Shown here: in pieces, positions 46,135 to 64,000 of the stretch
How positions within the stretch are numbered: the stretch's first letter is position 1
How the letters are laid out: each line of letters begins with the position of its first letter
Source of the DNA: Bradyrhizobium prioriisuperbiae
Lineage (GTDB): Bacteria > Pseudomonadota > Alphaproteobacteria > Rhizobiales > Xanthobacteraceae
Direction of reading: 5' to 3'
Assembly (NCBI RefSeq): GCF_032397745.1
Contig: NZ_CP135921.1
Location: 6,064,501-6,128,500, forward strand
DNA length: 64,000 nt
The notes under the pieces: generated by a model
What the model was told of the DNA's origin: nothing
Database searches by the model: none
Seen by the model: only the letters and a program-made list of their open reading frames with translations
Translations under genes and position numbers: made by a program

Positions 46135-46458
46135 GTTCGTTCTTATTTATCTGTGCGCATCGGCGCTCGCCCCAACATGTGAGGCGAGGGCGAACATACA
46201 TCGATCTGCGAACGCTAGACAATCCTACTGTCCGCCTATATGACAGCTAACAAGCAACACGGCGGATAACGCCGGGGCTGAGATGGACGAGGGGAGAGGC
46301 CGATGCGACAGTTTCCATCGTGCACGCACGCGTGGTTTGCGACATGATCGACGCGGACGATCGACCGATATCTGGCCGGCGGCGCGCTTGCGCCGCGGCA
46401 TGCGATTCAAACGCAAATCAAATCAAAAATCCAAATCAAGAACTGTAGGAGGACTGGA
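46135..46458. promoter_or_regulatory. Divergent GntR/ABC promoter region with candidate operator
   Basis: The 324-base gap holds no gene. CTGTC (46228-46232) and GACAG (46242-46246) form an inverted repeat with a 9-base spacer, and a second TAGACA lies 10 bases before, a possible GntR site. Ribosome binding sites AGGAGG (46447-46452) and GGGGAGG (46461-46467) precede two in-frame ATGs of the next gene. Confidence 0.45.
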
Positions 46459-47838: not shown

Positions 47839-47849
47839 GCTCTTGAAGG

Positions 47850-47873
47850 GCGAGGCGGCGCGCGCCGCCTCGC
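47850..47873 (+). terminator. Strong hairpin between binding-protein and permease genes
   Basis: GCGAGGCGGC (47850-47859) and GCCGCCTCGC (47864-47873) form a perfect 10-bp stem with a GCGC loop, followed by TTTCCTTTCC. It is a rho-independent terminator in form, placed 12 bases after the binding-protein stop, so it should lower permease expression relative to the binding protein. Confidence 0.8.
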
Positions 47874-47928
47874 TTTCCTTTCCGGATCACCAGGCGGGAC
47901 TGCCCGCCGCACACGCAGAGGCACACCC

Positions 47929-48807
47929 ATGTCCGTGCTGGCATCGGCCGCTCCCCCAGACACAGCCGAGGGACGATTCAGTCTGTCGCGGATGACGCCG
48001 GCGGAAAAGCTCGGCCTCATGATGATCGTGCCGTACGTCATCTTGTTCTTGGTGTTCGTGCTGTATCCGGTCTGTTACGGCCTGTGGCTGGCGCGCAATC
48101 CGGCGAGCTATGCCAAGCTTGCGGCCGATCCGATCTTCCTGCGCACCGTCATCAACACGGTGATTTTCCTCGGCGTCGGCATCACGCTGAAAATGATCAT
48201 CGCGCTGTTCCTGTCGGATTTCTTCGTGCAGGACCGCTGGTGGATCAAGATCCTGGCGCTGATCTTCATCCTGCCGTGGGCGGTGCCATCGATCACCACC
48301 ATCCTGTCGATCCGCTTCATGCTCAATCCGGAGTGGGGTATCATCAACCACACGATCTTTACCCTGACCGGCGACGACGGGCCGAACTGGCTGAACAATC
48401 CGACGCTGGCGCTGGCACTCGCCATGGTTGTACACATCTGGAAATCGCTGCCGTTCTGGACTCTGATTTTGGTTGCCGGGCGGCTGGCGATTCCGAACGA
48501 CCTCTATGAGGCCGCCGATGTTGACGGAGCCACAACGGTGCAGAAATTCCGCTTCGTGACATGGCCGTCGCTGCAGACACTGTGGCTGACCTGCCTGATC
48601 CTGTCGACGTTGTGGTCGCTCGGCGACTTCAACAGTGTGTATCTCTTGACCGGAGGCGGGCCCGCCGATCTCACCCATGTGCTGGCCACGTTGGGGCTGC
48701 GCTATCTGCGGCTCGACCAGGTCGAGATGTCGGTGGCGGCGGTGGTCTGCGCCATGCCGCTGGTCATTCCCCTGATTTACTTCATGATGAAACGGTTGGC
48801 CAAATGA
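47929..48807 (+). CDS. Sugar-type ABC transporter permease (MalF/UgpA type)
   Basis: A 292-residue permease with six helices and the EAA loop LYEAADVDGATTVQKFRFVTWPSLQ (around residues 185-210). N-terminal LGLMMIVPYVILFLVFVLYP is typical. 90 bases after the binding-protein gene beyond a terminator-like hairpin; its stop overlaps the next start (ATGA). Confidence 0.9.
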   Translation: MSVLASAAPPDTAEGRFSLSRMTPAEKLGLMMIVPYVILFLVFVLYPVCYGLWLARNPASYAKLAADPIFLRTVINTVIFLGVGITLKMIIALFLSDFFVQDRWWIKILALIFILPWAVPSITTILSIRFMLNPEWGIINHTIFTLTGDDGPNWLNNPTLALALAMVVHIWKSLPFWTLILVAGRLAIPNDLYEAADVDGATTVQKFRFVTWPSLQTLWLTCLILSTLWSLGDFNSVYLLTGGGPADLTHVLATLGLRYLRLDQVEMSVAAVVCAMPLVIPLIYFMMKRLAK

Positions 48808-49667
48808 GCGCGGTCGCACGAGAGGCCTTCTGGCACAAGATCACCACCGAGGCGAAGCTGCTGCTGATCGGCATCCCGGTGCTGCTGTGGACCATGGCGC
48901 CGATCTACCACATGATGCTGTTCGCCTTCTCGGCGAAGGACAGCGCAATGTCCGGCGCGCTGTGGCCGAAGGAGCCGACCCTCAACAATTTCGCCATCGT
49001 GTTCGGCCAGAAGCACTTTTATCTGCATCATTTCTGGCTGCAGTTCTGGAATTCGTTCGTGATCGCTGCGGCGACCGGGATCATCACGCTGTTCATCGCC
49101 ACGTTCGCGGCGTTCGCCATCAGCCGGCTGAAGGTGAGGGGCGGGGCGATGGTGATGAACCTCGCGCTGTTCACCTACTTCATTCCGGCGGCGTTCCTTG
49201 CCGTGCCGATGTATCGCACCATGGGCAATTACGGCCTGCTCAACACCCACTGGGCGATGATCCTGGCCATGGTGACGCTGTCGTCGCCCTACGCGATCTG
49301 GGTGCTCAAGCAGGCCTCCGACAAGCTGCCTTTCGAACTCGACGAGGCCGCCACCATGGACGGCGCCTCGCCCTGGCAGCTGTTCCGGCTGGTCTATCTG
49401 CCGCTGATGGTGCCGTCGCTGGTCGCGGTCGGCACCTACGCCCTGCTGCTCGCCTGGAACGAATATCTCTATGCTTTCCTGCTGTTGTCGCGCGACACCG
49501 ACATCACGCTGGGCGTGGCGCTCGGCAACTTCCTGGCGGCGGACGACTCGCCTTGGGAGTTGTTGATGGCGACGGGACTGGTCTACTCGCTGCCGCCGGT
49601 CGTCATCTATTATGTGTTCAAGCGCTACATGGTGTCCGGGCTGACCGCGGGCGCGGTGAAGAGCTGA
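48804..49667 (+). CDS. Sugar-type ABC transporter permease (MalG/UgpE type)
   Basis: A 287-residue permease with the EAA loop PFELDEAATMDGASPWQLFRLVYLPLMVPS (about residues 175-205) and the usual C-terminal RYMVSGLTAGAVKS. The ATG overlaps the previous stop by 4 bases. A longer open frame upstream lies inside the previous gene. No MsmK/UgpC-type ATPase gene follows within the window. Confidence 0.92.
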   Translation: MSAVAREAFWHKITTEAKLLLIGIPVLLWTMAPIYHMMLFAFSAKDSAMSGALWPKEPTLNNFAIVFGQKHFYLHHFWLQFWNSFVIAAATGIITLFIATFAAFAISRLKVRGGAMVMNLALFTYFIPAAFLAVPMYRTMGNYGLLNTHWAMILAMVTLSSPYAIWVLKQASDKLPFELDEAATMDGASPWQLFRLVYLPLMVPSLVAVGTYALLLAWNEYLYAFLLLSRDTDITLGVALGNFLAADDSPWELLMATGLVYSLPPVVIYYVFKRYMVSGLTAGAVKS

Positions 49668-49776
49668 GGCGCTCCCGTCGGGCGTCGCCTTGCTGGTTGC
49701 ATTTTGGAGAAAAACTTGTGGATCTGCGCGGTGTGAGACGACGCATGTCACGTGACTGCGCTACCGCTTGTTCTCG

Positions 49777-49801
49777 CCACAACTATAACTTATAGTTGTG
49801 G
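49777..49801. promoter_or_regulatory. Perfect 11-bp inverted repeat, operator or terminator
   Basis: CCACAACTATA (49777-49787) and TATAGTTGTGG (49791-49801) are separated by three bases and followed by TTTATTGTTT. The short spacer and AT-rich centre look like a dimeric regulator site; the T-rich tail also allows a terminator for the ABC operon. It lies 225 bases before the oxidase start codon. Confidence 0.6.
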
Positions 49802-49907
49802 TTTATTGTTTCATAAACTGTTTGGCCTATGGGATTTTGTTTGTGCGGGGCGATGCCTGGAATACCCGCGATTTTATCTAAATTGTCTTCTCAACACGTG
49901 ATTTTTG

Positions 49908-49921
49908 TCACCGCGCCGGGC
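49908..49921. promoter_or_regulatory. CRP/FNR-superfamily-like box
   Basis: GTGA-N6-TCAC (49908-49921, centre TTTTTG) keeps the core of the CRP/FNR-type site. It is 105 bases upstream of the multicopper oxidase start codon. The regulator is unknown. Confidence 0.4.
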
Positions 49922-50025
49922 GGACTTTCCGGTTTAGACCTCTTTTAGAACTCTAACCTGTAGTTGCACCTGGGGCGACAAACCGCAGCCGTTTGGCATG
50001 TGGCGTCCCCGGCAAGCGGGGAGCC

Positions 50026-53000
50026 ATGTCTATGGCCGCGTTTTTGTCGGACCGATTTGTTCTGCTGGTTACAATCGCGCTGAGTGCAATTGCAGGGATA
50101 GGGGCAAGTCTAAGTTCAGCGTCGGCCGCAGACGCCGTCTGCAGCGATGGCCAGCGCCGCACCATGCAGGCGAGTGTCGTCGCGTTCGATCAGCCGATGA
50201 TGATCAACCGGTTGGGCACCAACCGGCCGCAGGGCATGATCTACGCTTTGCTCGGCGATGTCGTTCCGATCGATGCCTCACAGAAGCTTGGACCGGGCAA
50301 TGTCCAGCTTCGGTCCGACAAGCGTCCGCGCCCGCTGGTGCTGCGCGTCAATGTCGGCGATTGCCTGAAGATCGATTTCCGGAATTTTCTCAGCGCTGCT
50401 CCCGCAAGTCCGCAGCAGCCGGTCACCCGCACCGCGTCGATCCATGTCACGGGCCTCGAGCCCGCCACCAACATCGCTGATGACGGCTTCGATGCCGGCA
50501 GCAATCCCGACGGCCAGGTCGCCCAGAGCTCGTGGCGCACCTACACGCTGTATGCCCCCGCCGAGGGCACGTTCCTGATGTACAGCCCGGCCGGCGACTT
50601 CAACGGCTTCGGCACGTCCCAGCAGATGGCTGGCTTGTTCGGTGCGGTGCATGTCGAGCCCAAGGGTGCCGAGTGGTATCGCAGCCAGGTCTCCAACGCC
50701 GACCTGATGCAGGCGACGCGGGGATCGCGCAACGGCCAGCCCATCATCGATTATGACGCGCGCTTCCGCGACGGCCCGCGTCGCGGCCAGCCGGTGCTGC
50801 GGATGACCGATGGCGACACGATCGTCGCGTCCGACCTCACTGCCGTCATCACCGGGCCGAACCATGGCCGTTTCCCCAAGGGCAGCCGTCCCACCGTCAA
50901 TCCGACATTGCTGCCGGATCGCGAAGCGCCGTTCCGCGAGATCACCTCGATCTATTCGGAGTCGCTCGATCTGGTTCAGGCGTTTCCGGATTACTACACC
51001 ACGCCCGGCACCAATCTTGTGGTCAGCGGCGGCGGCGACGGCTTCGCCATCAATTACGGCGCCTCGGGCATCGTCAACGAGATCCTGGCCAACCGGCTCA
51101 AGATCGGCCCGTCCGCCGATTGTCCGGAATGCAAGTTCGAGGAGTTTTTCCTGAGCTCATGGCCGAACGGCGATCCCGGGGTCGTGGTGGATGTGCCGGC
51201 CAACCTGAACTGCGTCGACAACTGGCTGTCCAATATCGGCGTGTCCGCCGTCACGCCCAACTCCAACCCGCCGACCACCACGTCGCAGAGCTGGGGCACC
51301 ACCCGTTGCAAGAATGCGGACATGCCGGGCCTGAAGCCGACCAAGGCGTTCTATCCGGACGATCCGTCGAACGTCTATCACAGCTATCTCGGCGACCACG
51401 TGATCTTCCGTGTGCTGCACGCCGGCGTGTCGGTCCATCACGTCCACCACCATCATGCGCATCAGTGGTTGTTCTCGCCGGAGCAGCCGGGCAGCAATTA
51501 TCTCGACAGCCAAGCGATCGGGCCCGGTTCGACTTTCTCGATGGAGCTGGTCTATTACGGCGCCGGCAACCAGAACCTGACCGCCGGCGATTCCATTTTC
51601 CACTGCCATTTCTATCCACACTTCGCCTCGGGCATGTGGGCGCTGTTTCGGGTGCACGACACGCTTGAACTTGGCACCGAGCTCGATGCCAATGGGCGGC
51701 CGAAGCCGGGCAGCCGCGCGCTGCCAGATCCGGAGATCATGACGGGCACGCCGACGCCGGCGGTGTTGCCGCTGCCGATGTACGCGATGGCGCCGGTGCC
51801 GGCGCCGGTCGAGATCGCCAACGGCCAGGTGCATTTTGCCAAGAAGCCGGACCGCAATCCCGGTTATCCGTTCTTTGTGCCGGGCCTCGCCGGCCATCGT
51901 CCGCCGCATCCGCCGCTGGCGTTTGCGCAGGACAAGGGCGACGTGCTCGACGGCGGCCTGCCGCGCCATCTGGTGATGGCTGGCCGGGTCGCGACCAATG
52001 TGCACAGCCAGACTGATTACACCAAGAACCTCGATCTGATCGATGCGCTGCGGCTGCCCGAGCAGGGCACCGTGGTCGAGCAACTGGCCATGAAGGCGCA
52101 TGAGCAGCGTTTCCAGCGCAGCATCACGCCGGAAGGGCAGCCCGCCGAATTCCGCCTGACCGGCGCGCCGCGCGCCTCCGGCGCACCGTTCGCCAATCCG
52201 ACGCCGCAGGATACCAAGGTGCAGAAGCGCCTGTACAAAGGCGCCGACGTGCAGATCGACACGGTGTTCAACAAGGCCGGCTGGCACTATCCGCAGCAGC
52301 GCATGATGGCGCTGTGGGATGACGTCAAGCCGCTGGTCAATGGCACCAAGCCGCCGGAGCCGCTGTTCGTCCGCGCCAACAATGGCGAACTGGTCGAATA
52401 CTGGCAGACCAACCTGGTGCCGTCCTATTACGAGCTCGACGATTATCAGGTGCGCACGCCGACCGACATCATCGGCCAGCACATCCATCTCGTGAAGTTC
52501 GATGTACTGGCGGCCGACGGCGCCGCCAATGGATTCAATTACGAGGACGGCACCTTCAGTCCGCAGGAGGTGCGCGACCGCATCAAGGCGATCAATGAGT
52601 TCGGCGGCATGTGCGAGCCGTTGCCCGGCCTGATCGATGTGCCGAAAACCTGTCCCCCCGGAGCGAACCGCGTGCCGAAGACCGCGAAGGCAATCCCCGC
52701 CCTCGGCGACGGCCCGACCAAGGACAGCCAGGACTGGAAGGGTGCGCAAGCGACCGTGCGGCTCTGGTACGTCGATCCCCTGAAGGATCTTCAGCGCGAG
52801 CGTTCCTACATGACCGTGTTCACGCACGATCATTTCTCTCCATCGACCCATCAGGAAGCCGGGCTTTACGGCGGCCTGCTGATCGAGCCCAGGGGCTCGA
52901 CCTGGACAACACCGGGTGGTGCGCTGCTGGGGCAGGGGCGTGATGACGGCGGTCCCACCAGTTATGCCGCCAGCATCCTGCCTCCATCAGGCAGCCCGGA

Positions 53001-55554
53001 GACCAGTTACCGCGAGTTCGCGCTGGCGTGGGCCGATACCCAGCTGGTTTACAACAACATCAGCAAGACCCGGCCCGATTGTTATCCGACCGGTCCGACC
53101 GCGCCGGGCTGTGTCCCGGTCGCGCCCGGCACATACACCGGCTGGTCCGACACCGCGAACGCGGTCAATCCGGCCGCGTCGCCGGTCACCGGCGCGGCGC
53201 AGCCGCTGGTGATCGCCGATTTCGGCTCCGGCACGTTCTCGATGAACTATCGCAACGAACCGCTGCCGCTGCGTCTGAACAACGCGACCGATCCGCGCGC
53301 CGGCGATGCGGCGTGGTCCTACGCCTCGATCCCCGGCCGCAATGCGGCCTTCGCCAAGCAGCCCGATGCCGGCGGCAAGATCAATCCGGCCTGCACCGAC
53401 AACTCCTGCTTTACCTATCCCAGGCTGCCGATCAGCAGCGGCATGAAGGGCGAGGATCCGTACACGCCGCTGTTCAACGTCTATCCGCAGGACCCGGTGC
53501 AGATCCGGCTGCTGGCGGGCGGCTTCACCACCATGCACGATGTCATCACCCACGGCCTGCCGTGGAAGTTCGAGCCGTACAACCCGAACTCGGGTTGGCG
53601 CGAGAGCCAGCTGACATTGCTGAGCGAGCATTTCGAACTGCATGTCAAGCCACCGCGCGCGGGCGATTATCTCTACAGCACCGGCGCGTCCTATGAGGGC
53701 ATGACCAACGGGATGTGGGGGCTATTGCGCGCCCATGCCACGGCGCAACCGGATCTCAAGCCGCTGCCGTCGAATCCGGCGCCGACCAGCCTGCCGTTCA
53801 CGCCACCCGCGGTCTCCGCGCAGTGCGACCGCGGCGTTCCCTGCAAGCGTCAGTTCGCCGTCACGGCGCTGACCATCGGCCAGGCGCTCGGGCAGGGGAC
53901 TGCCCTTACTTACAATGGCCGTGGCCTGACCCTGAAGGCGGGTCTTGCTGCGAACGAAGTGCTGAACGATCCCATGGCGATCATCTATGTGCGCAATGAG
54001 GATCTCTGCCAGCCGACGTCGGCCGCATGCGTACCCGGCGGATTGTTGAAGCGCGGTATCAAGGTCGAGCCGCTGGTGTTGCGGGTGGCCGCCGGTGACG
54101 TGGTGGAAGTCACCTTGACCAATGGCGTCGACACCAATGCTCAGACCTTCACGACGGCGATTCCCGGCGCCCGGGTCGGGATTCCGTATTCCAACCCGTA
54201 TCAGGCCATCAACCTGCTGCCGTCGACCAATGTCGGTCTGCATCCGCAGTTGCTGGCGTTCGACGTGAAGAGCGACAACGGCATCAATGTCGGTGAGAAC
54301 ACGGTCAGCACCGTGGCACCGACATACAACCGAACCTACACCTGGTACGCCGGCACAATCGAAGCCGGCCCGGGCGGCGTGCCGAAGGCGACGCCGGTGG
54401 AGTTCGGCGCGCTCAATCTGATGCCGGCGGATCCGCTCAATCATCCCTATCGTGGCCTGTTCGGCGGGCTCGTGGTCCAGCCGGCCGGTTCGACCTGGGT
54501 CGAGGATCCCGACAGCCATATGTCGGCCACGGTGTTTCTCGACGACGGCTCGTCGTTCCGCGATTTCGTGGTGATCGGCCAGGACGACGTCGACATTCTG
54601 CTCAACGGCAGCTCGAACTATGCCGCCGGCAATGCCTTGTCGGCGATCAATTACCGGACCGAGCCCGCGATCTATCGTTACGGTGAGTTGCTTGAGACAT
54701 ATCCCAATGCGCTGACCGCGGCGGTCAAGGATTGGTCGAACCTGACCGCCGCCAATCTCGGAACGCTTGGCAGCGTCAATTGGGCCGATGTGGACACCAG
54801 CAAGTATATCGCCAACGTGCTGGTCGGCGGTGAGCCGCAGACGCCGATCTTCCGTGCGCCCGCCGGCATGCCCGTGCGTTTCCGCCTGCTGCACGCCGGC
54901 GGCAACGGCGACAATCAGCAGGTGTTCGAGCTGAGCGGTCATGTCTGGCAAGCCGAGCCTTATCTCAACAACTCCACCGTGATCGGCGACAACAAGGCCT
55001 CGCCGATGCTCGGCGTCACCAGCGGCTATGGCGTGAGTTCGCATTTCGACGTGGTGATCCCGTCAGCCGGCGGCACCGCCAAGGTGGCGGGGGATTATAT
55101 TTATCGCACCTGGACCGCGGATCAGTTCCAGGTCGGTTTCTGGGGCTTGTTCCGCGTGGCGCCTCTCGTCGGGCCGATTGCCGGCGGTTTCCCCGACACG
55201 GTCGCGGTGACCGGCGCCGGTCCCGCTGACGGCGGCAAGTTCGCGGTGTCGGGTCATGTCACTGTGGCCGCCGCGCGATCGGCGATAGGACGGGTCCAGG
55301 CCTCACAGCTTCAGCTCAAGATTGATGGCGCGGCAATGACCACATCAGTCAATGCGGATGGTCGCTGGGAGGTGGTGCTGGACAAGGAGCCGGTGCGTGT
55401 TGAGGTGAGCTCGCCGAACGGCGGTGTCACCCAATGGGAGCGCCGTGCGCCACAACTGGCGGCGGACTTCGTCGCAGCGGCGGCGCCAGTGCCGCCGCCA
55501 TTGCGGCCGCGCCCGAGGGTTCCGAACCGGCGTCATGTTGGGCAACTGCAGTGA
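50026..55554 (+). CDS. Giant multicopper oxidase (MofA/MnxG-like, multiple cupredoxin domains)
   Basis: A 1842-residue exported protein: signal peptide FVLLVTIALSAIAGIGASL with cleavage near residue 35. It is built of at least six cupredoxin folds in about three blocks. Block 1 carries the copper centres HHVHHHHAH (471-479) and HCHFYPHFASGM (526-537), an exact HCHxxxHxxxxM type 1/3 motif. Block 2 has QHIH (819, 821), HDHFSPSTH (934-942, Cys replaced by Asp) and MHDVITH (1171-1176). Block 3 repeats block-1 sequence (RPLVLRVNVGD at 102, EPLVLRVAAGD at 1348). Ordinary MCOs have 450-600 residues; size and layout recall Mn(II) oxidases MofA and MnxG. GGGGA precedes ATG. First gene of a six-gene operon. 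Confidence 0.88.
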   Translation: MSMAAFLSDRFVLLVTIALSAIAGIGASLSSASAADAVCSDGQRRTMQASVVAFDQPMMINRLGTNRPQGMIYALLGDVVPIDASQKLGPGNVQLRSDKRPRPLVLRVNVGDCLKIDFRNFLSAAPASPQQPVTRTASIHVTGLEPATNIADDGFDAGSNPDGQVAQSSWRTYTLYAPAEGTFLMYSPAGDFNGFGTSQQMAGLFGAVHVEPKGAEWYRSQVSNADLMQATRGSRNGQPIIDYDARFRDGPRRGQPVLRMTDGDTIVASDLTAVITGPNHGRFPKGSRPTVNPTLLPDREAPFREITSIYSESLDLVQAFPDYYTTPGTNLVVSGGGDGFAINYGASGIVNEILANRLKIGPSADCPECKFEEFFLSSWPNGDPGVVVDVPANLNCVDNWLSNIGVSAVTPNSNPPTTTSQSWGTTRCKNADMPGLKPTKAFYPDDPSNVYHSYLGDHVIFRVLHAGVSVHHVHHHHAHQWLFSPEQPGSNYLDSQAIGPGSTFSMELVYYGAGNQNLTAGDSIFHCHFYPHFASGMWALFRVHDTLELGTELDANGRPKPGSRALPDPEIMTGTPTPAVLPLPMYAMAPVPAPVEIANGQVHFAKKPDRNPGYPFFVPGLAGHRPPHPPLAFAQDKGDVLDGGLPRHLVMAGRVATNVHSQTDYTKNLDLIDALRLPEQGTVVEQLAMKAHEQRFQRSITPEGQPAEFRLTGAPRASGAPFANPTPQDTKVQKRLYKGADVQIDTVFNKAGWHYPQQRMMALWDDVKPLVNGTKPPEPLFVRANNGELVEYWQTNLVPSYYELDDYQVRTPTDIIGQHIHLVKFDVLAADGAANGFNYEDGTFSPQEVRDRIKAINEFGGMCEPLPGLIDVPKTCPPGANRVPKTAKAIPALGDGPTKDSQDWKGAQATVRLWYVDPLKDLQRERSYMTVFTHDHFSPSTHQEAGLYGGLLIEPRGSTWTTPGGALLGQGRDDGGPTSYAASILPPSGSPETSYREFALAWADTQLVYNNISKTRPDCYPTGPTAPGCVPVAPGTYTGWSDTANAVNPAASPVTGAAQPLVIADFGSGTFSMNYRNEPLPLRLNNATDPRAGDAAWSYASIPGRNAAFAKQPDAGGKINPACTDNSCFTYPRLPISSGMKGEDPYTPLFNVYPQDPVQIRLLAGGFTTMHDVITHGLPWKFEPYNPNSGWRESQLTLLSEHFELHVKPPRAGDYLYSTGASYEGMTNGMWGLLRAHATAQPDLKPLPSNPAPTSLPFTPPAVSAQCDRGVPCKRQFAVTALTIGQALGQGTALTYNGRGLTLKAGLAANEVLNDPMAIIYVRNEDLCQPTSAACVPGGLLKRGIKVEPLVLRVAAGDVVEVTLTNGVDTNAQTFTTAIPGARVGIPYSNPYQAINLLPSTNVGLHPQLLAFDVKSDNGINVGENTVSTVAPTYNRTYTWYAGTIEAGPGGVPKATPVEFGALNLMPADPLNHPYRGLFGGLVVQPAGSTWVEDPDSHMSATVFLDDGSSFRDFVVIGQDDVDILLNGSSNYAAGNALSAINYRTEPAIYRYGELLETYPNALTAAVKDWSNLTAANLGTLGSVNWADVDTSKYIANVLVGGEPQTPIFRAPAGMPVRFRLLHAGGNGDNQQVFELSGHVWQAEPYLNNSTVIGDNKASPMLGVTSGYGVSSHFDVVIPSAGGTAKVAGDYIYRTWTADQFQVGFWGLFRVAPLVGPIAGGFPDTVAVTGAGPADGGKFAVSGHVTVAAARSAIGRVQASQLQLKIDGAAMTTSVNADGRWEVVLDKEPVRVEVSSPNGGVTQWERRAPQLAADFVAAAAPVPPPLRPRPRVPNRRHVGQLQ

Positions 55555-57476
55555 TCCCCCGAGGGGAGCGGCTGAGGTCCGCATCCATGGCCGCTGCGTT
55601 TGCGCTGCTGCAGTTGGCTGCGTGGGGTGACGCCACACCCGCGCGGGCCGAGCAGACCGAGAAGCAAGCCGAATCTGCAGGCGTATGCATCAGCTTCACG
55701 CTGTCAGCGCTGACGTCGGCGACAGCGCCATCGGCTGGTCGTGATGCCGCGTTCGCTTTCAAGCTCGCCATGGGCAACGACGCGCCGCTGCGCGGCGCCA
55801 AGCCCGCGGCCTGGCTGGTGCCGCATGCACCCGGCGACACGCTCGACGAGCGTCGCTGCCGGCGCATCGCGGCGGCCTTCGTGCGCGGCGCCAGCATGAC
55901 GGTGCCGGCCATCGACCTCAACGCCTTCTACATTCTGTCGCTCGGCGGCGACGCCAGTGTCTCGGTGATCGATCCCCGGATCGGCTTTGGCGGATCGCGG
56001 CTGCTGGATCTCGCCACCTTCGACGCCAACGCCACCGACTGGGCGCTGACACCGGACCAGGGCCTGCTGGCGGTGGCGCAGCCGTCCGTCGATCAGATTG
56101 CGCTGATCGACACCCGGGACTGGAGCATCAGGAGCAAAGTCAACGTGCCCGGTGCCACGCGACTGGCGCTCACGCCCGATGGGCGAACGTTGCTGGCGTC
56201 CTATCGGGCAGCTTCGGGCGGCAACGAAGCGGAGAACGGGCTCGCCCTTGTCGATCTCGGCACGCCGACTACGTCGCCGTCGCGCATCGCCACCGGTGCC
56301 GGTCCGCACGACATCGTTGTCGATAACGAGGGCCGGGTTGCCTTCGTGACCAATGCAGGGGCCGACACCGTGAGTGTCATTGACCTCGCAGCCAAGCGGA
56401 TAGCACGCACCGTACCCGCCGGCCATCGGCCGACCGTGCTCGCCTATTCGGCGCTGGCCCGGCGAGCCTACGTGGCCGCGGAGGACGGCAAGTTGACGAC
56501 TGTCAGCGCATCGCCATCGGCGCCGACAGCCACAATCGACGGGCCGCGCGGAATAACCGCGCTGCGATTTGCGCCGGGCGAGCGTTTCCTGCTCGCGGCC
56601 AGCCCGCAAGCGGGCGAGGTGGTGGTGCTCGATACCGCGACTGATCGCATCGTGCAGCGTTTTCCGGTCGCCGGCCAGCCCGACGCCATCGGCTTCTCCG
56701 ATCACGTCGTGTACATCCGCCGGCGCGCCAGCGAGTTCGTCGATGCGTTTCCGCTGGACCAGATCGGCATCGAGGGGCGCACGCCAAGCGCAATGAGCGT
56801 CGGCATGGGGCAGCTGGCACTGGGCGCCATGAGCGCGTCGGCGCGCGCCGATGTGATGGCTCCGGTGCCGGGCGGCGACGGCGTGATGATCGCAAGCCCA
56901 GGCGAGCGCACCATCTATTTTTATCGCGAAGGCATGGCCGCGCCCTCCGGCAGCTTCACCACCTACGGCCGCGAGCCGCGCGCGGTGCAGATCCTCGATC
57001 GCCGCCTGCGTGAGGCCGAGCCCGGCGTTTATCGCACGGTTGGCCGATTGCCTCGCGCGGGCACCTACGACGTCGTGCTTTATATCGACGCGCCGCGGCT
57101 CGTGCAGTGTTTCGAGGTGCGTATCGATGAGGATTCCAAAGGCGGTGACGGCACGGCGGCAACACCGCGGGTTGCTGACCTTGCGTTGAACGGCACGCCG
57201 CGTGCCGGTGCGCCGCTCGCCCTGCAATTCCGCCTTGTCGATCCGCAGACCGGCGCGCCCATGAACGGCGTGAGCGACGCGCGCATCCTTTCCTTTGCCA
57301 TCCCTGGGCAGAGCGCCGTGCGCAGCATTGCGAGGCCGCTCGGTGACGGCGCGTATGCGGCCGAAATCACCATGCCCGTGCCGGGCAATTATTACGTCTT
57401 CGTCGAGGCGCCTTCGGTCGCGCTGGCGCCGGCGGCAGGCCGGCTTGTTGCGGTCGCGCCTGCCGCCTCGCCGTAG
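55551..57476 (+). CDS. Periplasmic YVTN-type beta-propeller protein with C-terminal YtkA/FixH-like domain
   Basis: A 641-residue protein. From the GTG at 55551, which overlaps the oxidase stop (GTGA), it has a basic n-region (IPRGERLR), hydrophobic LLQLAAW and cleavage after ARA; ATG 55587 is an alternative. Residues about 125-420 carry six to seven propeller blades (DASVSVIDPR, DQIALIDTRDW, DTVSVIDLAAKRIARTV, GEVVVLDTATDRIVQRFPV). The last 90 residues (APLALQFRLVDPQTGAPMNG to MPVPGNYYVFVEAP) resemble YtkA/FixH-like domains. Such propellers occur as subunits of quinoprotein amine dehydrogenases and in cytochrome cd1; no heme or quinone site is visible here. Probably a scaffold of the oxidase complex. 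Confidence 0.82.
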   Translation: MIPRGERLRSASMAAAFALLQLAAWGDATPARAEQTEKQAESAGVCISFTLSALTSATAPSAGRDAAFAFKLAMGNDAPLRGAKPAAWLVPHAPGDTLDERRCRRIAAAFVRGASMTVPAIDLNAFYILSLGGDASVSVIDPRIGFGGSRLLDLATFDANATDWALTPDQGLLAVAQPSVDQIALIDTRDWSIRSKVNVPGATRLALTPDGRTLLASYRAASGGNEAENGLALVDLGTPTTSPSRIATGAGPHDIVVDNEGRVAFVTNAGADTVSVIDLAAKRIARTVPAGHRPTVLAYSALARRAYVAAEDGKLTTVSASPSAPTATIDGPRGITALRFAPGERFLLAASPQAGEVVVLDTATDRIVQRFPVAGQPDAIGFSDHVVYIRRRASEFVDAFPLDQIGIEGRTPSAMSVGMGQLALGAMSASARADVMAPVPGGDGVMIASPGERTIYFYREGMAAPSGSFTTYGREPRAVQILDRRLREAEPGVYRTVGRLPRAGTYDVVLYIDAPRLVQCFEVRIDEDSKGGDGTAATPRVADLALNGTPRAGAPLALQFRLVDPQTGAPMNGVSDARILSFAIPGQSAVRSIARPLGDGAYAAEITMPVPGNYYVFVEAPSVALAPAAGRLVAVAPAASP

Positions 57477-57513
57477 AGAGAATTTGAACACTGGACGTTG
57501 GAAGGGGAGTGTT

Positions 57514-60500
57514 ATGCCAGAGATCGATACCGGCAAGATTGCATACTGCCAGATTTACCCCGGGGTCGGCATCGCGCGGATCGGCAACAGTCCCACCGAG
57601 TTCTTCATCGGGCCGGAGACGCCGGACCAGGTGGTCGCGCCGGTTGGCGGCTTCAAGGACAAGGGCGGGCGGATCAAGCGGCAGGCCGCGCGCTTCCGTC
57701 TCTACGCCTTCGACAAGGACAACGCCTGTCTCGGTGAAGTCACCACGGGCGAGGGCGTCGACATCACCTGGACGGTGCATCTCGCCAATGCCAAGCCGAG
57801 CTTCAACACCTTTCTCGGCCGTTTCTGGCAAAGCCAGTATCCCAATTTCTACAAATACAATCCCAATGAGACACCGCTGCGCAACCAGGAGATCATGGAT
57901 CCCGAGCAGCGGCGCAAGCTCCTTGTCATCGATCCCGGTCCACGCTCTATCAAGCCCGGCGAGGGGCCCGTGGAGTTCGACACCGGCACCATTGGCCCGC
58001 TGCCGTACTCAGACATTCCGGTGCCGGCGAATGGGCCCGATCCTCTCGCGGGCACGCGTGACGGCTGGTGGAATTGCCCGACCAGGGATCGGCTGCCCAA
58101 GCCGGTCAAGATGTCCGTGAAGGAGACTGTGGCGCTCGGGACCCTGCGGGTCGACGACTCTGGCCGGCTTCTGGTGCTCGGCGGTTACGGACGCAGCGAC
58201 TCGCTGATTCCGAACAATCCGGTCGGCCGGCTGATGGACAGCAACTATTACGCCAACAACGATTACTGGTTCGACGATACGTCCGACGGTCCGGTGTCCG
58301 CCGAAGTACGGATCGGCGGCAAGCCGATCACGGTGAAGGACAGCGCGTGGGTGCTGGTGACGCCGCCCAAGTTCGCGGTCGATGCCCAGATGCCGACCAC
58401 GCTCTACGACACGGCGATGGAAACCTGGGAGAAAAAACAAAACGGCGGCAAGCTGCCCGAGCGGAAGGTGTCGTTCAGCCGCGACATCTATCCCATCCTG
58501 CGCCGCCTGGACGGTATCACCTGGCTCAATCGCACCGCCTACCAGCATCACGGCGCCAACACCAACAACGACTTCGCCAATGTGCACAGCGCGCTGTTCC
58601 AGCTGCTGCACAGCAAGCAGAAGAAGCAGGAGGTCGAGGCGGCCCAGGCACGCCAGCACATCTTCGGACGATTGCGCCCGCCCGGGCTGGTGCCGGCGAC
58701 GCCGAACGCGGCCGATACACCCGAAAGCCTGCCGTACGCCAGCTATCGGTTCATGCCGCAGATGTCCGGTGACGGTGGCGAGCCGACCACGCTGGAGGAT
58801 CCGGCCAGCTCCATCAACGACAAGGTCTATGATTGCACCACCGGCCAGGAATGGCCGGTGACCACGCCGACATCGCCGCCACCGGGCGGCTGCTATATCA
58901 CCTGGCTGACGCTGTCGGATCGCCAGTATGCCGACATGGGCCAGTGGGCGGCGGGCGCGTTCGACGACGACTGGACCGGGCCGCCGCAGCCGGTGCCGCT
59001 TGAAAGCCTGCCGGTCGCGGCGCAGCCGGATGCGCTCAATCGCGCCGCGTTTGATCCCTGCATCGGAGCGCCGTTCTATCCCGGCATCGAGATCACCTAC
59101 ATATCGACCGATCCGGCATTGTGGTCCGGTCCATGCCGCATCGACGCCGCGACCACGACGCCCGGTGGCATCACCTGCCACATGGCGCTGCCATGGCAGG
59201 CCGATTTCAGCGAATGCAATACCAACTGGTGGCCGACCGCGCGGCCGGACGATGTCGTCTCGGAAGCCGAACTCGACAGGGTGATGAACGCCTACAGCGA
59301 AGCCAGCGAAGGCACGCTCTCGCGCGCGCTGTCGGTGCGTGTGCCATGGGCGCGCGGCATTCCCTCCGTGTCGCCGGCGCTCGACAATGCGATGGTGAAG
59401 GCGTGGTCGCATTTCGGCTTCGTCGTGAAGAAGCAGGTCGCCAGCGGCGAGACCGTTTATGTCGAAACCGAGCGCTCGCCGTATTTCGGCAGCACTGAAC
59501 GCGACTTCTTCTATTATCTGATGAACATCGACGCCTATCCGGACTTCGTGCCGCGTGCGCACCAGCTGGTGCACCAGTATCTGGCGGAGGGGCGGCGCAA
59601 CGGGCAGGAGGCAGATCTGGATGAAGTGTGGACCTATTTCCCCTTCAGCCAGGAGGCGTTCGATGCGCGGCTGGAGCTGATCTACGCCAATTTCGTCCGC
59701 GACAATCAGACCACCGCCAATCCCGAGATGCTCTCGAGCCGCCAGTTCTCCCCGCCGAACTATCTCAGCACCAGCAACCGCGCCCAGCAGGCGTATCAGT
59801 TGCTGCAGATGGGGCCGTTCAATCAGCTTGATGGCGCCTGGCTGCGCCGGGCGGTTCCGGACGGGCCCGTGGACGAGGTCGGTGAGCTTTTGGCGCACAT
59901 CCGCCAGGACGAGCTCGGCGACGGCGTGGCGTCGCAGAACCACTCGAACGTCTACACCGATCTGCTCAAGAGCCTGAACTTCTACCTGCCGGATCTCTAC
60001 ACCCGCGCATACGCCGACGATCCGCGCCTGCTCGACGCGGCCTTCACCCAGCCGTGCTTCATCCTTGCGATCTCGCAGTTCGACGACGAGTTCCTGCCAG
60101 AGATCCTCGGCATGACGCTCTATCTGGAGTGGTCGTCGATCGGCCTCGTCACCACCGTGAACACGCTGAACGCGTTCGACATCAACCCGCTGTACTATTC
60201 GCTGCATGTCGGCATCGACAACGCCGCCGCCGGCCACGGCGCGCTGGCCAAGCGCGCCATCGAGATTTATCTCGATCGCGTCAGAGCGAGCGAAGGCCCC
60301 GAAGTGATGCAGCAGATCTGGGAGCGGATCTGGACCGGCTATGTCACGTTCGGCACCCTGGGGAATCTGGGCGACGCGATCCAGCAGCAGTTCACCAGCC
60401 AGAGCCTTGCCAGCCAGGTGCAGGCGCTGATCGTCAGGAAGGCGCCCTACGCCAGCCAGACTCACGGCCAGAAGACCCTGGGCAATGCCGCGATCAATGA

Positions 60501-61173
60501 CTGGTTCCTGGATCCGCCGGGCTTCATGAACGAGTTGCAGAAGTCGGGCCTGATCATTCCGGGCAAGCCGGAGATCAGCCCGTTCTTCCAGCTGCTCAGC
60601 TTCACCGGGCCGATGTACCACGTGTTCATGCCGGATGAGGAGCAGTTGCTGCGCGACTGGTGTTTCTCGCTCGCCGCGACCGCGGAGCCCCCGAACAAGA
60701 CCATCCTTCAGGGCATGAATTACGTCATCGACACCTTGCGCCAGCGCCAGGTCGGGCAGGCCGGACACAATGTCCGCATCACCGGGCCGGATCCGGACAA
60801 GAAGGGCGCCAGGCGCACGGAGTCGGTGCACTGGTGGTTCGACAGGGGCAATCTGCCTTTGATGAGCGCCCTGGCCAATCCGGACAATGGCTGGGTCGTG
60901 CCGTTCGATTCCATCGCCAGCCCGATCATGACCAGCCTGCTCGCCGGCAACGGCGCCATGGCGGATGATTTCCGCTCCATCGTGCCCGACACCGGAGGCC
61001 TGACCTGCGCCAACGTGTTCGCGCAATGGATCGATGCCGGCTGCCCGCTGCAGGAAAAGGTGGAGGAGGAGGCGGTGATGCTGCAACGGCCGCGCGAGAC
61101 AGCGCCGGTCACGCCGTATCGGATCTATCGGCGCAAGGATGGCAAGGTCTGGGGCATGGGTACGCCTCACTAA
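57514..61173 (+). CDS. LodA-family CTQ-type oxidase fused to a heme-oxygenase-like diiron domain
   Basis: A 1219-residue protein with no signal peptide. Residues 1-740 match LodA/GoxA (amino acid oxidases with cysteine tryptophylquinone): IYPGVGIARIGNSPTEF (14-30), LRVDDSGRLLVLGGYGRS (211-228), SAWVLVTPPKFAVD (277-290), DPCIGAPFYPGIE (514-526), MALPWQADF (557-565) and NWWPTARPDD (571-580). Cys516 with Trp561, 572 or 573 are candidates for the cofactor. LodA is normally about 700 residues. Residues about 780-1219 carry a second module with Glu800, His810, Glu872, His898, Asp902 and His908, the ligand set and order of heme-oxygenase-like diiron oxidases. GAAGGGGA precedes ATG. Substrate unknown; the family oxidises amino acid amines. 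Confidence 0.85.
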   Translation: MPEIDTGKIAYCQIYPGVGIARIGNSPTEFFIGPETPDQVVAPVGGFKDKGGRIKRQAARFRLYAFDKDNACLGEVTTGEGVDITWTVHLANAKPSFNTFLGRFWQSQYPNFYKYNPNETPLRNQEIMDPEQRRKLLVIDPGPRSIKPGEGPVEFDTGTIGPLPYSDIPVPANGPDPLAGTRDGWWNCPTRDRLPKPVKMSVKETVALGTLRVDDSGRLLVLGGYGRSDSLIPNNPVGRLMDSNYYANNDYWFDDTSDGPVSAEVRIGGKPITVKDSAWVLVTPPKFAVDAQMPTTLYDTAMETWEKKQNGGKLPERKVSFSRDIYPILRRLDGITWLNRTAYQHHGANTNNDFANVHSALFQLLHSKQKKQEVEAAQARQHIFGRLRPPGLVPATPNAADTPESLPYASYRFMPQMSGDGGEPTTLEDPASSINDKVYDCTTGQEWPVTTPTSPPPGGCYITWLTLSDRQYADMGQWAAGAFDDDWTGPPQPVPLESLPVAAQPDALNRAAFDPCIGAPFYPGIEITYISTDPALWSGPCRIDAATTTPGGITCHMALPWQADFSECNTNWWPTARPDDVVSEAELDRVMNAYSEASEGTLSRALSVRVPWARGIPSVSPALDNAMVKAWSHFGFVVKKQVASGETVYVETERSPYFGSTERDFFYYLMNIDAYPDFVPRAHQLVHQYLAEGRRNGQEADLDEVWTYFPFSQEAFDARLELIYANFVRDNQTTANPEMLSSRQFSPPNYLSTSNRAQQAYQLLQMGPFNQLDGAWLRRAVPDGPVDEVGELLAHIRQDELGDGVASQNHSNVYTDLLKSLNFYLPDLYTRAYADDPRLLDAAFTQPCFILAISQFDDEFLPEILGMTLYLEWSSIGLVTTVNTLNAFDINPLYYSLHVGIDNAAAGHGALAKRAIEIYLDRVRASEGPEVMQQIWERIWTGYVTFGTLGNLGDAIQQQFTSQSLASQVQALIVRKAPYASQTHGQKTLGNAAINDWFLDPPGFMNELQKSGLIIPGKPEISPFFQLLSFTGPMYHVFMPDEEQLLRDWCFSLAATAEPPNKTILQGMNYVIDTLRQRQVGQAGHNVRITGPDPDKKGARRTESVHWWFDRGNLPLMSALANPDNGWVVPFDSIASPIMTSLLAGNGAMADDFRSIVPDTGGLTCANVFAQWIDAGCPLQEKVEEEAVMLQRPRETAPVTPYRIYRRKDGKVWGMGTPH

Positions 61174-61191
61174 ATGGGCACGCCTTACTAA
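61156..61191 (+). repeat. 18-bp tandem duplication spanning the LodA stop codon
   Basis: ATGGGTACGCCTCACTAA (61156-61173) is followed at once by ATGGGCACGCCTTACTAA (61174-61191), two mismatches. The second copy repeats the last residues and stop codon in frame and gives a double stop. It looks like a recent slippage duplication. Confidence 0.85.
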
Positions 61192-61204
61192 GTGAGTGAA
61201 AGAT

Positions 61205-62329
61205 ATGGAAGTGAACACAACTCTGCCCGGTTACGTTGAAGTGGCTGTTATCGGTGGCGGCCCGGCCGGTGCCGTTGCCGCCCGAATGCTGGCGCAGCTC
61301 GGCGTCACCGTCGCATTGCTCGAAGCCGGACAGCATCATCCGCTGGTCGGCGAAACGCTGCCGCCTGCCGTGCGGCCGGTGCTGGATCGCCTGGGCTTGC
61401 GGGCTACGGTAGAGGCCGAGGGCTATCTTCCCTCGGTCGGCAGCTGGTCCGCCTGGGGTGATGCGGAGCCCTGGGGCCGCGACTTCATCTACAGTTATTT
61501 CGGTCATGGCTGGCATCTCGATCGCCGCCGCTTCGACGCGTTGCTGCGCGAAGCCGCGCGCGCGGCCGGAGCGCGGCTTGTGACAGGCGCATCAGTGATG
61601 GCATCCGCGCCTCTCGCGGGTGGTGGCTTCAGCCTGGCTCTTGCCGACGGCAGGGAGATCACCGCACGGATCGTGCTCGATGCCAGCGGACGCGGTGCCA
61701 GCTTCGCGCGGCAGCGCGGTGTCCGGCGCCAGACGCTCGACCGGATGGTGGCGCTGGTCGGCCATGTGGTGCGCCGCGCGGGTGCCGACGAGGAGCCGGC
61801 CGCCTCACTGGTCGAGGCGACGGCGGAAGGCTGGTGGTACTCGGCGCCGCTGCCGCAGGATCGCCTTGTCGTCGTGTTCATGACCGACAGCGATATCGCC
61901 CGCGAAATAGGGACCTCGACCGAAGGCTGGCTCGATCGGCTGTCCGCCGCGCCGCACACCGGCGCGCGCGCGCTGCGTTACGGCGCGGGCCTTGCCGGTC
62001 CGCCGGTCATCGTGCCGGCGGCGAGCGGCCGGCTGGAACGGTTCGGTGACGTGGATTGGCTGGCGATCGGCGATGCCGCCGCCACCCGCGATCCCTTGTC
62101 GTCGGAAGGCATTCTGATTGCGATGGAAAGCGGTCTCGACGCTGCTGAGGCCGCCGCGCGGGCGCTTCGCGGCGTTCGCGATGCGCTGCCGGCTGCGGCA
62201 GAGCGGCGCGAGGCCGGCTGGCGTGAGTATCTCGCGCTGCATGACCAGTATTACGACATGGAGCAACGCTGGCCGGACGCGCGATTCTGGCAACGGCGGC
62301 GCAGTCGCACGTTGCAGGCCGCCGAATAG
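61205..62329 (+). CDS. LodB-like FAD-dependent oxidoreductase
   Basis: A 374-residue flavoprotein of the geranylgeranyl-reductase/tryptophan-halogenase-like group: FAD motif VIGGGPAGAVAARML (16-30), GETLPPAVRPVLDRLGL, a second FAD segment IVLDASGRGASFARQRG and DWLAIGDAAATRDPLSSEG. In LodA/LodB pairs LodB is needed to make the tryptophylquinone in LodA, so this is most likely the maturase of the preceding protein. ATG 31 bases after the LodA stop; a GTG three codons earlier is possible. Cytosolic, like LodA. Confidence 0.88.
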   Translation: MEVNTTLPGYVEVAVIGGGPAGAVAARMLAQLGVTVALLEAGQHHPLVGETLPPAVRPVLDRLGLRATVEAEGYLPSVGSWSAWGDAEPWGRDFIYSYFGHGWHLDRRRFDALLREAARAAGARLVTGASVMASAPLAGGGFSLALADGREITARIVLDASGRGASFARQRGVRRQTLDRMVALVGHVVRRAGADEEPAASLVEATAEGWWYSAPLPQDRLVVVFMTDSDIAREIGTSTEGWLDRLSAAPHTGARALRYGAGLAGPPVIVPAASGRLERFGDVDWLAIGDAAATRDPLSSEGILIAMESGLDAAEAAARALRGVRDALPAAAERREAGWREYLALHDQYYDMEQRWPDARFWQRRRSRTLQAAE

Positions 62330-62347
62330 ACATCAGAGGAGCGTCGC

Positions 62348-63544
62348 ATGAGACATTCAATCGCCGCCGGACTCGCCCTGCTGTTATTTGCCGCGGTGCC
62401 GGGTAAGGCTCATGAGATGAAGGCGTATGACATGCACATGCATCATCAGGCCAGTCCGCAGCCGACGCGGCCGCCGGCGGCCGCGGTGCCCGATATGCCG
62501 GTGGTCGATCAGGATGGCAAGCGCCTCAATTTCTACAGCGATCTGGTGCGCGGACGCACCGTCGCGATCGACTTCGTCTACACATCCTGCACCACCATCT
62601 GCCCGATGCTGACGGCTCACTTCCGCATGGTGCAGCAGGAGCTCGAGGCGCGCGTCGGCAAGGATATCGCGCTGATTTCGGTCTCGATCGATCCAGTGAC
62701 TGACACCCCGGCGAAGCTCAAGGCGTTCGCCGCACCGTTCGAGCCGGGCCCGGGCTGGACCTTCGTCACCGGCGCACGCCCCGACATCGCAAGATTGCTC
62801 GACAAGCTGGGACAGCCGTTCGGCAACCCGGCGGACCATGCCCCGGTGGTGCTGGTCCGCAATGACAAGGTCGGTGGCTGGACCAATGTCGATGGCAACG
62901 ATCCCGTCGCCATTCGCGAGGCGCTGATCGGCGCCGCCGGACCCGGCACGAAGATCGATACGCCCAAAGCTGACGCGACCAGACCTGATACGATCAAGCC
63001 CGATACAATCAAGCCCGGCACGACGAAAACCAGCACCACGAAGGTCGATCCGACCGATGCCGCCTTGGCCTATATGCGCAACCCGCTGCTGCGAACGCAG
63101 GACGACAAGCCGGTGCATTTTTTCGATGATCTGTTGCGCGGCAAGGTCGTGCTGATCAATTTCATCCTGACCACCTGCAAGGACACCTGTCCGATGGTCA
63201 CGGCCAATCTGTCCAAGGTCCAGGAGCTGCTGGGGGACAAGGTCGGCCGTTCCATCAACATGATCTCGCTGTCGGTCGATCCGCAGCGCGACCAGCCGGC
63301 TGAGCTGAAGAAGTTCGCCGATAATTTCGACGTCAGGCCCGGCTGGTACTTTCTGACGGGTGAGCGGCCGGAGATCGATCCCTTGCTGCGCCGTCTCGCG
63401 GCCTATACCACCGATCCGCTCGACCACAGCACTGTCCTGGTGATCGGAAATATCGAAACTGGAAACTGGACCAAGATTTTCGGGATGGCGGAGCCCGCGT
63501 CCATCGCGCGCGCCGTGCTCGCGCTGCAGTCGTCGACCCAATGA
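62348..63544 (+). CDS. Tandem SCO1/SenC-type copper chaperone (two thioredoxin-like domains)
   Basis: A 398-residue exported protein. After the signal peptide (AAGLALLLFAAVPGKA) comes a His/Met-rich segment (HEMKAYDMHMHHQ, residues 22-34). Domain 1 (about 45-195) has the SCO copper motif Cys81-x3-Cys85 (SCTTICPM) with His164 (ADHAPVV). A Thr/Lys/Pro-repeat linker (PDTIKPDTIKPGTTKTSTTK, 213-232) leads to domain 2 (about 240-398) with Cys277-x3-Cys281 (TTCKDTCPM) and His360. SCO proteins normally have one such domain and load copper into cytochrome oxidase. Here it probably metallates the multicopper oxidase of the operon. GAGGAG precedes ATG. Confidence 0.92.
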   Translation: MRHSIAAGLALLLFAAVPGKAHEMKAYDMHMHHQASPQPTRPPAAAVPDMPVVDQDGKRLNFYSDLVRGRTVAIDFVYTSCTTICPMLTAHFRMVQQELEARVGKDIALISVSIDPVTDTPAKLKAFAAPFEPGPGWTFVTGARPDIARLLDKLGQPFGNPADHAPVVLVRNDKVGGWTNVDGNDPVAIREALIGAAGPGTKIDTPKADATRPDTIKPDTIKPGTTKTSTTKVDPTDAALAYMRNPLLRTQDDKPVHFFDDLLRGKVVLINFILTTCKDTCPMVTANLSKVQELLGDKVGRSINMISLSVDPQRDQPAELKKFADNFDVRPGWYFLTGERPEIDPLLRRLAAYTTDPLDHSTVLVIGNIETGNWTKIFGMAEPASIARAVLALQSSTQ

Positions 63545-63548
63545 CGTG

Positions 63549-64000
63549 ATGCGCCGCGCGCTGGCGATCACCGTCGTTGCGCTCGCGATCACGACAGGAC
63601 TGGCGTCAGCTGCGGACAATCAGCCGACCTCCGGCCAGCGCATCTTCCGGTTCGGCGGCGACGCGGGCGAGGTGCGCGCAACATTCGCTGCGTCCAACGC
63701 GATGCTGCCGCCGGTCGTGCGGCGTTGCGCGGGCTGTCATGGCGCCGACGGCGCGGGCACGCGCGAAGGCGGGGTGCCGACCCCGCCGATCTCCTGGGCT
63801 GCACTGGCTGTGCCGCGCGCCCCGTCGCCGGCGCGGCCGGGCCGCCCTGGTTACGATGAAGCCACACTCAAGCGCGCCTTGACCGAAGGGATCGATGCTG
63901 CCGGACGTCCGCTTGCCGCCGGCATGCCGCGCTTCCAGCTGTCGCCGACGCAAGTCACCGCGCTGCTGGACTATCTTCGCATCGTCGGAACCGACGCCGA
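63549..64000 (+). CDS. c-type cytochrome (3' end beyond the window)
   Basis: The first 150 residues are visible. Signal peptide ALAITVVALAITTGLASA; heme-binding Cys60-Ala-Gly-Cys63-His64 (RRCAGCHGADGAG); likely distal ligand Met126 (LAAGMPRFQLS); C-terminal helix TALLDYLRIVG. The single heme domain seems complete, so little may be missing. It starts 4 bases after the SCO gene. In this operon it should take electrons from, or give them to, the copper or quinone enzyme in the periplasm. Confidence 0.9.
   Translation, partial: MRRALAITVVALAITTGLASAADNQPTSGQRIFRFGGDAGEVRATFAASNAMLPPVVRRCAGCHGADGAGTREGGVPTPPISWAALAVPRAPSPARPGRPGYDEATLKRALTEGIDAAGRPLAAGMPRFQLSPTQVTALLDYLRIVGTDA

Follow-up and report, generated by a model that had tools for sequence, protein, structure and literature searches.

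An extended mnxG-type operon of Bradyrhizobium prioriisuperbiae with a predicted LodA-type quinoprotein joined to a haem-oxygenase-like diiron domain

The window analysed here is a stretch of 64,000 nucleotides from Bradyrhizobium prioriisuperbiae (positions 6,064,501 to 6,128,500 of contig NZ_CP135921.1; G000:C1:6064501-6128500), which belongs to a single-contig genome of 9.08 Mb. Six plus-strand genes that run from position 50026 to beyond 64000 almost certainly constitute, judging from their sequences, an mnxG-type operon in an extended form. The core of this operon has already been described, and the novelty lies in a gene pair inside it that we have not found described in this setting: a lodB-like gene and a gene for a LodA-type oxidase, of the cysteine tryptophylquinone (CTQ) type, fused to a haem-oxygenase-like diiron domain (HDO). 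The latter protein is called LodA-HDO here. The whole set could be read as an exported MnxG-type metal oxidase accompanied by an accessory enzyme that oxidises amines or amino acids, perhaps in two steps leading to an N-oxygenated, metal-binding product, a reading for which belief and doubt are about equally balanced. The genes are the following:

50026..55554, plus strand: MnxG-type multicopper oxidase of 1842 amino acids with a signal-like N-terminus (NF041487, PDB 9bxa, copper motifs)
55551..57476, plus strand: beta-propeller protein (YncE/lactonase-type) with a weak C-terminal YtkA-like domain and a signal-like N-terminus (domain search)
57514..61173, plus strand: LodA-HDO, with a CTQ-type oxidase (residues about 10-660), then a diiron domain of the haem-oxygenase-like type (about 655-963) and at the C-terminus a region (964-1219) without assigned fold
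61205..62329, plus strand: LodB/GoxB-like flavin adenine dinucleotide enzyme, presumed CTQ maturase (NF038174 GoxB, 233.0 bits; NF038171 LodB, 219.6 bits)
62348..63544, plus strand: tandem SCO1/SenC protein with a signal-like N-terminus and two SCO domains, with one CxxxCP motif each (at 81 and 277)
63549..64000, on to window-equivalent 64988 (L001:14050-15489), plus strand: cytochrome c (CAGCH) in fusion with a periplasmic binding domain of type I (Peripla_BP_6)

The list of open reading frames bears out the six tightly packed same-strand genes of the initial annotation, with intergenic gaps of -4, 37, 31, 18 and 4 bases, and the order is oxidase first, followed by propeller/YtkA, LodA-HDO, LodB, tandem SCO and the cytochrome c-binding-protein fusion. 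The domain families named in that annotation were also recovered, but the sixth gene is a longer fusion than had been stated, and the Haem_oxygenas_2 (HDO) domain fused to LodA had been missed. In the sequence past 64000, the frame of the sixth gene, still open at the window end, stops at 64988, and its downstream neighbour encodes a LysR regulator on the opposite strand, so that the same-strand run is complete at six genes. When the sequence from window-equivalent 44001 onwards was compared by blastn (E 1e-10) with the locus of Bradyrhizobium sp. SRS-191 (L003), a stretch that covers only about 0.7 kb downstream of the operon, only 50153-64983 aligned, that is, the six genes, and the upstream flanks gave no match at this threshold. 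Since this homology is limited to the six genes, their grouping is not due to chance. The proposal of a single operon with a conserved association appears sound in view of the gene order, the relatives and the covarying distances described below.

The MnxG protein of Pseudomonas putida is a Mn(II) oxidase. The oxidase of the window matched the NCBIfam model NF041487 (MnxG) with 1075.9 bits, short of the curated equivalog cut-off of 3100, and MnxG was the sole NCBIfam model that matched it at E up to 0.1; a sequence search also recovered MnxG of PDB 9bxa (E 2.7e-83). With the same model, relatives scored 806.8 (L106), 500.8 (L107), 1433.7 (L028) and 1110.8 bits (L008). Four copper motifs, into which the residues were placed by inspection, are present (H472/H475/H477; H526-C527-H528..H532..M537; H819/H821; H934/H936), and the conservation of the named residues is 1.00 (rounded) across 76 aligned rows. 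Mn(II) had been among the substrates guessed at initially; the MnxG type of the oxidase favours this guess but its score below the cut-off does not, and Mn(II) would be the most likely substrate, a view held with rather more confidence than doubt. Alternatively, the oxidase could act on phenolics, Cu(I) or Fe(II), LodA-HDO preparing or consuming the organic substrate in question. The distance of the score from the equivalog cut-off is compatible with this, and SCO, YtkA and cytochrome c are components found generally in copper and redox systems. However, the core genes are those of the mnxG operon save SurA, and no other NCBIfam model competes with MnxG, so that we consider such a substrate unlikely. 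Another MnxG-type oxidase, with an open frame of 2535 codons, is present in Bradyrhizobium diazoefficiens SZCCT0423 (L029:9911-17515), in a locus without LodA.

Signal-like N-terminal segments occur in the oxidase, the propeller, the SCO protein and the cytochrome fusion, as scored by a hydropathy measure that is not specific for signals, since LodB, for which no export is expected, likewise reaches 2.04. Alternative starts exist for the propeller gene (ATG at 55587) and for the sixth gene (GTG at 63546). The YtkA match in the propeller protein is sub-threshold, and the profiles built here find both the propeller and the YtkA parts beside other MnxG-type oxidases.

A scan of the GTDB species genomes for MnxG-type oxidases gave 47 loci, on which profiles made from the window proteins were iterated. 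In 34 of them, the oxidase is followed by 5 kb or more, and the carriers of these 34 are found among Acidobacteria, Planctomycetota, myxobacteria (Sorangium, Polyangium, Pyxidicoccus), other deltaproteobacteria, Tahibacter, Massilia, Undibacterium and Bradyrhizobium, among others. The remaining 13 were dropped for short flanks, and L017, with 1.5 kb downstream, stands outside the 34. Anywhere in these 34 loci and on either strand, the propeller was found in 30, SCO in 25, the cytochrome c-binding-protein fusion in 22 and LodA-HDO in 4. The initial annotation would have given up its proposal if clusters elsewhere lacked most of the genes. This is not what was found: most relatives do keep the propeller, SCO and cytochrome fusion genes, but LodA-HDO is present in only 4 of the 34. 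Its description of the system as undescribed fails for the core, which corresponds to the mnxG operon of P. putida GB-1 and relatives as presented in Table 4 of PMC11409713 and the legend of Fig. 2 in PMC8218464. The likeness that it drew to quinoprotein amine dehydrogenases had to be abandoned as well. A role of the propeller and cytochrome c as subunits of such an enzyme is not supported, because both accompany the oxidase without LodA in most loci; besides, no signal-like segment precedes the first LodA-HDO domain in any of the 80 relatives that reach the domain start (3 of 83 do not). Within the phylum, an MnxG match was obtained in 4 of 398 sampled genomes (the own genome included, one match being marginal at E 9.7e-4), none over the cut-off. 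In the Tahibacter-type loci L007, L008, L017 and L019, the oxidase and propeller genes are preceded by those for SCO and cytochrome on the opposite strand, and LodA was not seen. In the operon of an Acidobacteria gp7 member (L011:21804-23486), SCO and cytochrome c seem to be fused in one frame, and the binding-protein match is weak.

LodA-HDO is predicted to be bifunctional, a CTQ quinoprotein joined to a diiron domain. It contains LodA_N and LodA_C domains, with the Haem_oxygenas_2 match at residues 764-942, and the predicted fold of its CTQ half is of the LodA/GoxA type. Neither equivalog cut-off is reached (GoxA 281.4 bits, cut-off 750; LodA 192.3 bits, cut-off 600), and the LodB-like gene that adjoins lodA-HDO scores under the GoxB and LodB cut-offs, both of 400. 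The CTQ candidates C568 and W573, matched to LodA by alignment, are present in 121 of 121 rows. As far as sequence can tell, LodA-HDO is very probably an active CTQ oxidase. The spacing between Cys and Trp, counted on the alignment, is 5 in LodA-HDO versus 65 in LodA, and ranges from 5 to 35 residues among the LodA-like families found, leaving out rows without the motif and the HDO row L104, for which the rule gave a meaningless 243. A short CTQ loop unique to LodA-HDO was considered as a novelty and rejected, since L052, a LodA relative that has no HDO match, shows a spacing of 5 as well. The HDO half is predicted to adopt an HDO fold with a candidate 3-His/3-carboxylate diiron ligand set. 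Among the chains compared, the nearest folds are those of the amine N-oxygenases RohS, HrmI and SznF, at 13-17% sequence identity. This half may be a diiron N-oxygenase of an amine, a plausible assignment that we place just short of probable.

LodA-HDO directly follows the propeller gene in the same orientation in Bradyrhizobium sp. SRS-191 (L003), Massilia frigida (L004), the Acidobacteria gp7 member (L011) and a member of the Acidobacteriaceae (L013), whose contig stops just behind LodA. Linkage was also estimated by a proxy, LodA and oxidase matches on equal-sized contigs, for which the best 120 hits on each side were used (out of 1482 for LodA and 2981 for the oxidase). Among the LodA-HDO proteins whose contigs measure at least 12 kb, 22 of 75 are linked to an MnxG-type oxidase, a number that is probably a lower bound because of this proxy and selection. 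According to relatedness, linked proteins are 10 of 19 close, 12 of 34 intermediate and 0 of 22 distant ones. In the LodA tree, all 22 fall into one clade of 88 rows that includes unlinked members such as L103. In the oxidase tree (for which FastTree flagged long branches, chiefly those of outgroups), the LodA-linked rows belong to one clade of 121 rows with a support of 90 (not starred), or of 100 with the Undibacterium rows added. Linkage is found there for 22 of 66 eligible rows within 87 of the 121 rows, and for 0 of 21 eligible rows in the Tahibacter-type subclade of 34 rows (L007, L008 and L019 being without LodA) and 0 of 7 in the sister clade formed by Undibacterium. Oxidase and LodA distances are strongly correlated (Mantel r 0.946 for 26 pairs, 22 by the proxy and 4 direct; 0 of 5000 permutations as high), and the paired divergence reaches 45% identity for LodA and 49% for the oxidase with the candidate cofactor residues intact. 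These sequence comparisons indicate long-term co-inheritance of the oxidase and LodA-HDO.

The LodA pair could be a mere passenger, inserted once behind the propeller gene in ancient times and kept because the genes of the operon are transferred together, while having no function in common with the oxidase. The upstream flanks in the two rhizobial genomes are unrelated and the block is rare in the order, for which reason it probably travels as a unit, and common inheritance alone can account for the distance correlation. However, the pair occupies the same position in several phyla despite the divergence just mentioned and retains its candidate cofactor residues, and passenger status seems very unlikely.

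Some LodA match is present in 20 of the 45 genomes holding an MnxG-type locus, and the 11 additional LodA loci from such genomes (L092-L102) have the LodA core and no match to the HDO profile. In the order, 16 of 397 sampled genomes (the own genome included) have some LodA match, and full-length LodA-HDO was found in two of them, that of the window and G328 (37-48% identity). In the phylum of G759, 2 of 396 sampled genomes, G759 included, have LodA-HDO at E 1e-50. Just behind the MnxG-type operon of Pyxidicoccus fallax (L010:13972-17434, and L128), a LodB-like and a divergent LodA-like gene are located on the opposite strand.

From the gene set, its conservation, the intact cofactor residues and the predicted folds, all of them observed, we infer as follows what the core parts do, which substrate is used, that N-oxygenation takes place and how the two halves of the operon are connected. 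The exported MnxG-type oxidase would oxidise a metal or small substrate, most likely Mn(II), outside the cytoplasm with O2, while the SCO domains and the propeller/YtkA protein might deliver copper and put it in place. The cytochrome c-binding-protein fusion might provide a link to electron transfer or sense an amino acid-like ligand. The CTQ enzyme, matured by LodB, would oxidise an amine or amino acid, and the fused diiron domain would carry out a second O2-dependent step, probably an N-oxygenation. A small N-oxygenated compound might result that serves as a ligand of copper or Mn(III), although it is doubtful that the product binds metal. Still bolder, and decidedly unlikely, is the idea that LodA-HDO makes a dedicated copper or Mn(III) metallophore for its own operon, which would load the MnxG-type oxidase or be cycled by it.

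In a different explanation, LodA-HDO and LodB would be a source of peroxide and ammonia for biofilm formation or competition, as Marinomonas LodA, with H2O2 arising when the CTQ half oxidises an amino acid and the diiron domain only protecting against this H2O2 or using it, and the oxidase would be linked through a common surface or stationary-phase programme. Marinomonas LodA is described as secreted in stationary phase and as altering biofilm architecture (PMC2855505), and in the survey PMC4417212 lodA genes adjoin other multicopper oxidases and a tyrosinase in the group ID operons and catalase-like domains occur on other LodA fusions. However, the group ID operons have a different oxidase plus tyrosinase, and the predicted HDO fold is closest to N-oxygenases; we find this explanation rather unlikely.

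Several points speak against a metal oxidase assisted by an amine-oxidising, N-oxygenating enzyme. Mn(II) is not assured as substrate, because the score of the oxidase lies far under the equivalog cut-off for MnxG. The SurA gene present at the end of the GB-1 operon is not at the operon end here, the one place where it was looked for, and a consensus scan of 49640-50026 that allowed up to two mismatches found no sigma-54-like site on the plus strand. LodA-HDO appears dispensable for the oxidase core, since 30 of the 34 loci with long enough flanks are without it. It also exists away from MnxG, in L103:8669-12481, L104:8467-13376 and L105:8764-13844 (with LodB beside it in L104 and L105, and no LodB match in the 19.9 kb stretch of L103), and G328 and G1134 have LodA-HDO and no MnxG match in the genome. 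The distance correlation follows from common inheritance alone and is no proof of common function. A PDB sequence search with the HDO part gave nothing significant (one match, 9pfw, E 0.89), and likeness of a predicted fold at 13-17% identity shows no function by itself.

The reason for bacterial Mn oxidation is an open question, and the accessory genes of mnxG operons have, as far as we are aware, no role assigned to them. The mnxG gene set reaches well beyond pseudomonads, and an amine-oxidising, perhaps N-oxygenating enzyme seems to be retained inside mnxG-type operons in several phyla, so that one locus joins the fields of Mn oxidation, CTQ quinoproteins and diiron N-oxygenases. If LodA-HDO did make a dedicated metallophore, metal oxidation in this clade would be ligand-assisted, with a genetically linked ligand. 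LodA-HDO offers a specific target both for gene deletion and for enzyme assays.

The gap upstream of the operon is AT-rich (GC 0.507) and contains the following element:

49780..49798, no strand assigned: perfect 9+1+9 palindrome CAACTATAACTTATAGTTG, candidate operator

The role of this palindrome as an operator is suggested by its sequence and position. It is the sole such site in the 9.08 Mb genome at up to two mismatches; a degenerate second copy lies at 49948, and the region upstream of the operon in L003 matches it only poorly (5 or fewer substitutions). A sigma-54 promoter as in GB-1 was also considered; the consensus scan found none upstream, and its matches in the whole window number 34 versus 32.4 expected by chance. 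Foreign composition was set aside as a signal, the contrast in GC between the operon (0.654) and window positions 1-50000 (0.625) not being decisive. Further upstream (window 45427-49667), the look of the open reading frames suggests a GntR-type regulator and an ATP-binding cassette transporter of the sugar type.

With respect to known systems, the Mnx complex of Bacillus, which we take to be the source of the MnxG in PDB 9bxa, shares the multi-domain copper oxidase family by sequence (E 2.7e-83); it also has small partners of the MnxE/MnxF type. LodA-HDO and its partner differ from the LodA/GoxA oxidases with LodB/GoxB in the Cys-Trp spacing of 5, the fused HDO and C-terminal regions and the failure to reach both equivalog cut-offs. 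RohS, HrmI and SznF are the nearest folds to the HDO half and share the candidate ligand set, but sequence identity is 13-17% and here the domain is fused to a quinoprotein. Table 3 of the 2015 survey PMC4417212 lists five LodA-like proteins with pfam14518, which likewise have LodA and Haem_oxygenas_2 in one chain; pfam14518 is called N-terminal in them, whereas here the HDO comes after the LodA part. The group ID lodA operons of Bradyrhizobium and Saccharophagus, as described in the same survey, resemble the present one in that LodA/LodB adjoin a multicopper oxidase. However, that oxidase is of the pfam07731 plus pfam07732 type, a tyrosinase is present, a small gene mostly lies between lodA and lodB, and the survey's description of these operons includes no propeller, SCO or cytochrome fusion. 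A full-text search of PMC4417212 did not find the word MnxG, and among the open-licence PMC papers searched, a scope outside which most subscription journals fall, none has both words MnxG and LodA. The closest system is the mnxG operon of P. putida GB-1, which Table 4 of PMC11409713 gives as mnxG, YVTN propeller, SCO, SCO, an amino acid/amide substrate-binding protein with a cytochrome c domain, and SurA; a similar operon of Pseudomonas sp. OF001 appears in the legend of Fig. 2 in PMC8218464. GB-1 has reported sigma-54 sites, whereas none was found upstream here at up to two mismatches, its SCO domains are encoded by two genes instead of one tandem gene, and the GB-1 list in that table is without the LodA-HDO/LodB pair that here stands between propeller and SCO. 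In GB-1, and also in Pseudomonas sp. OF001, MS-1 and DSV-1, the oxidase comes first and is followed on one strand by the propeller, SCO and the cytochrome c-binding-protein fusion, as in the window, and because this unusual fusion is common to both, a common origin of the core is close to certain.
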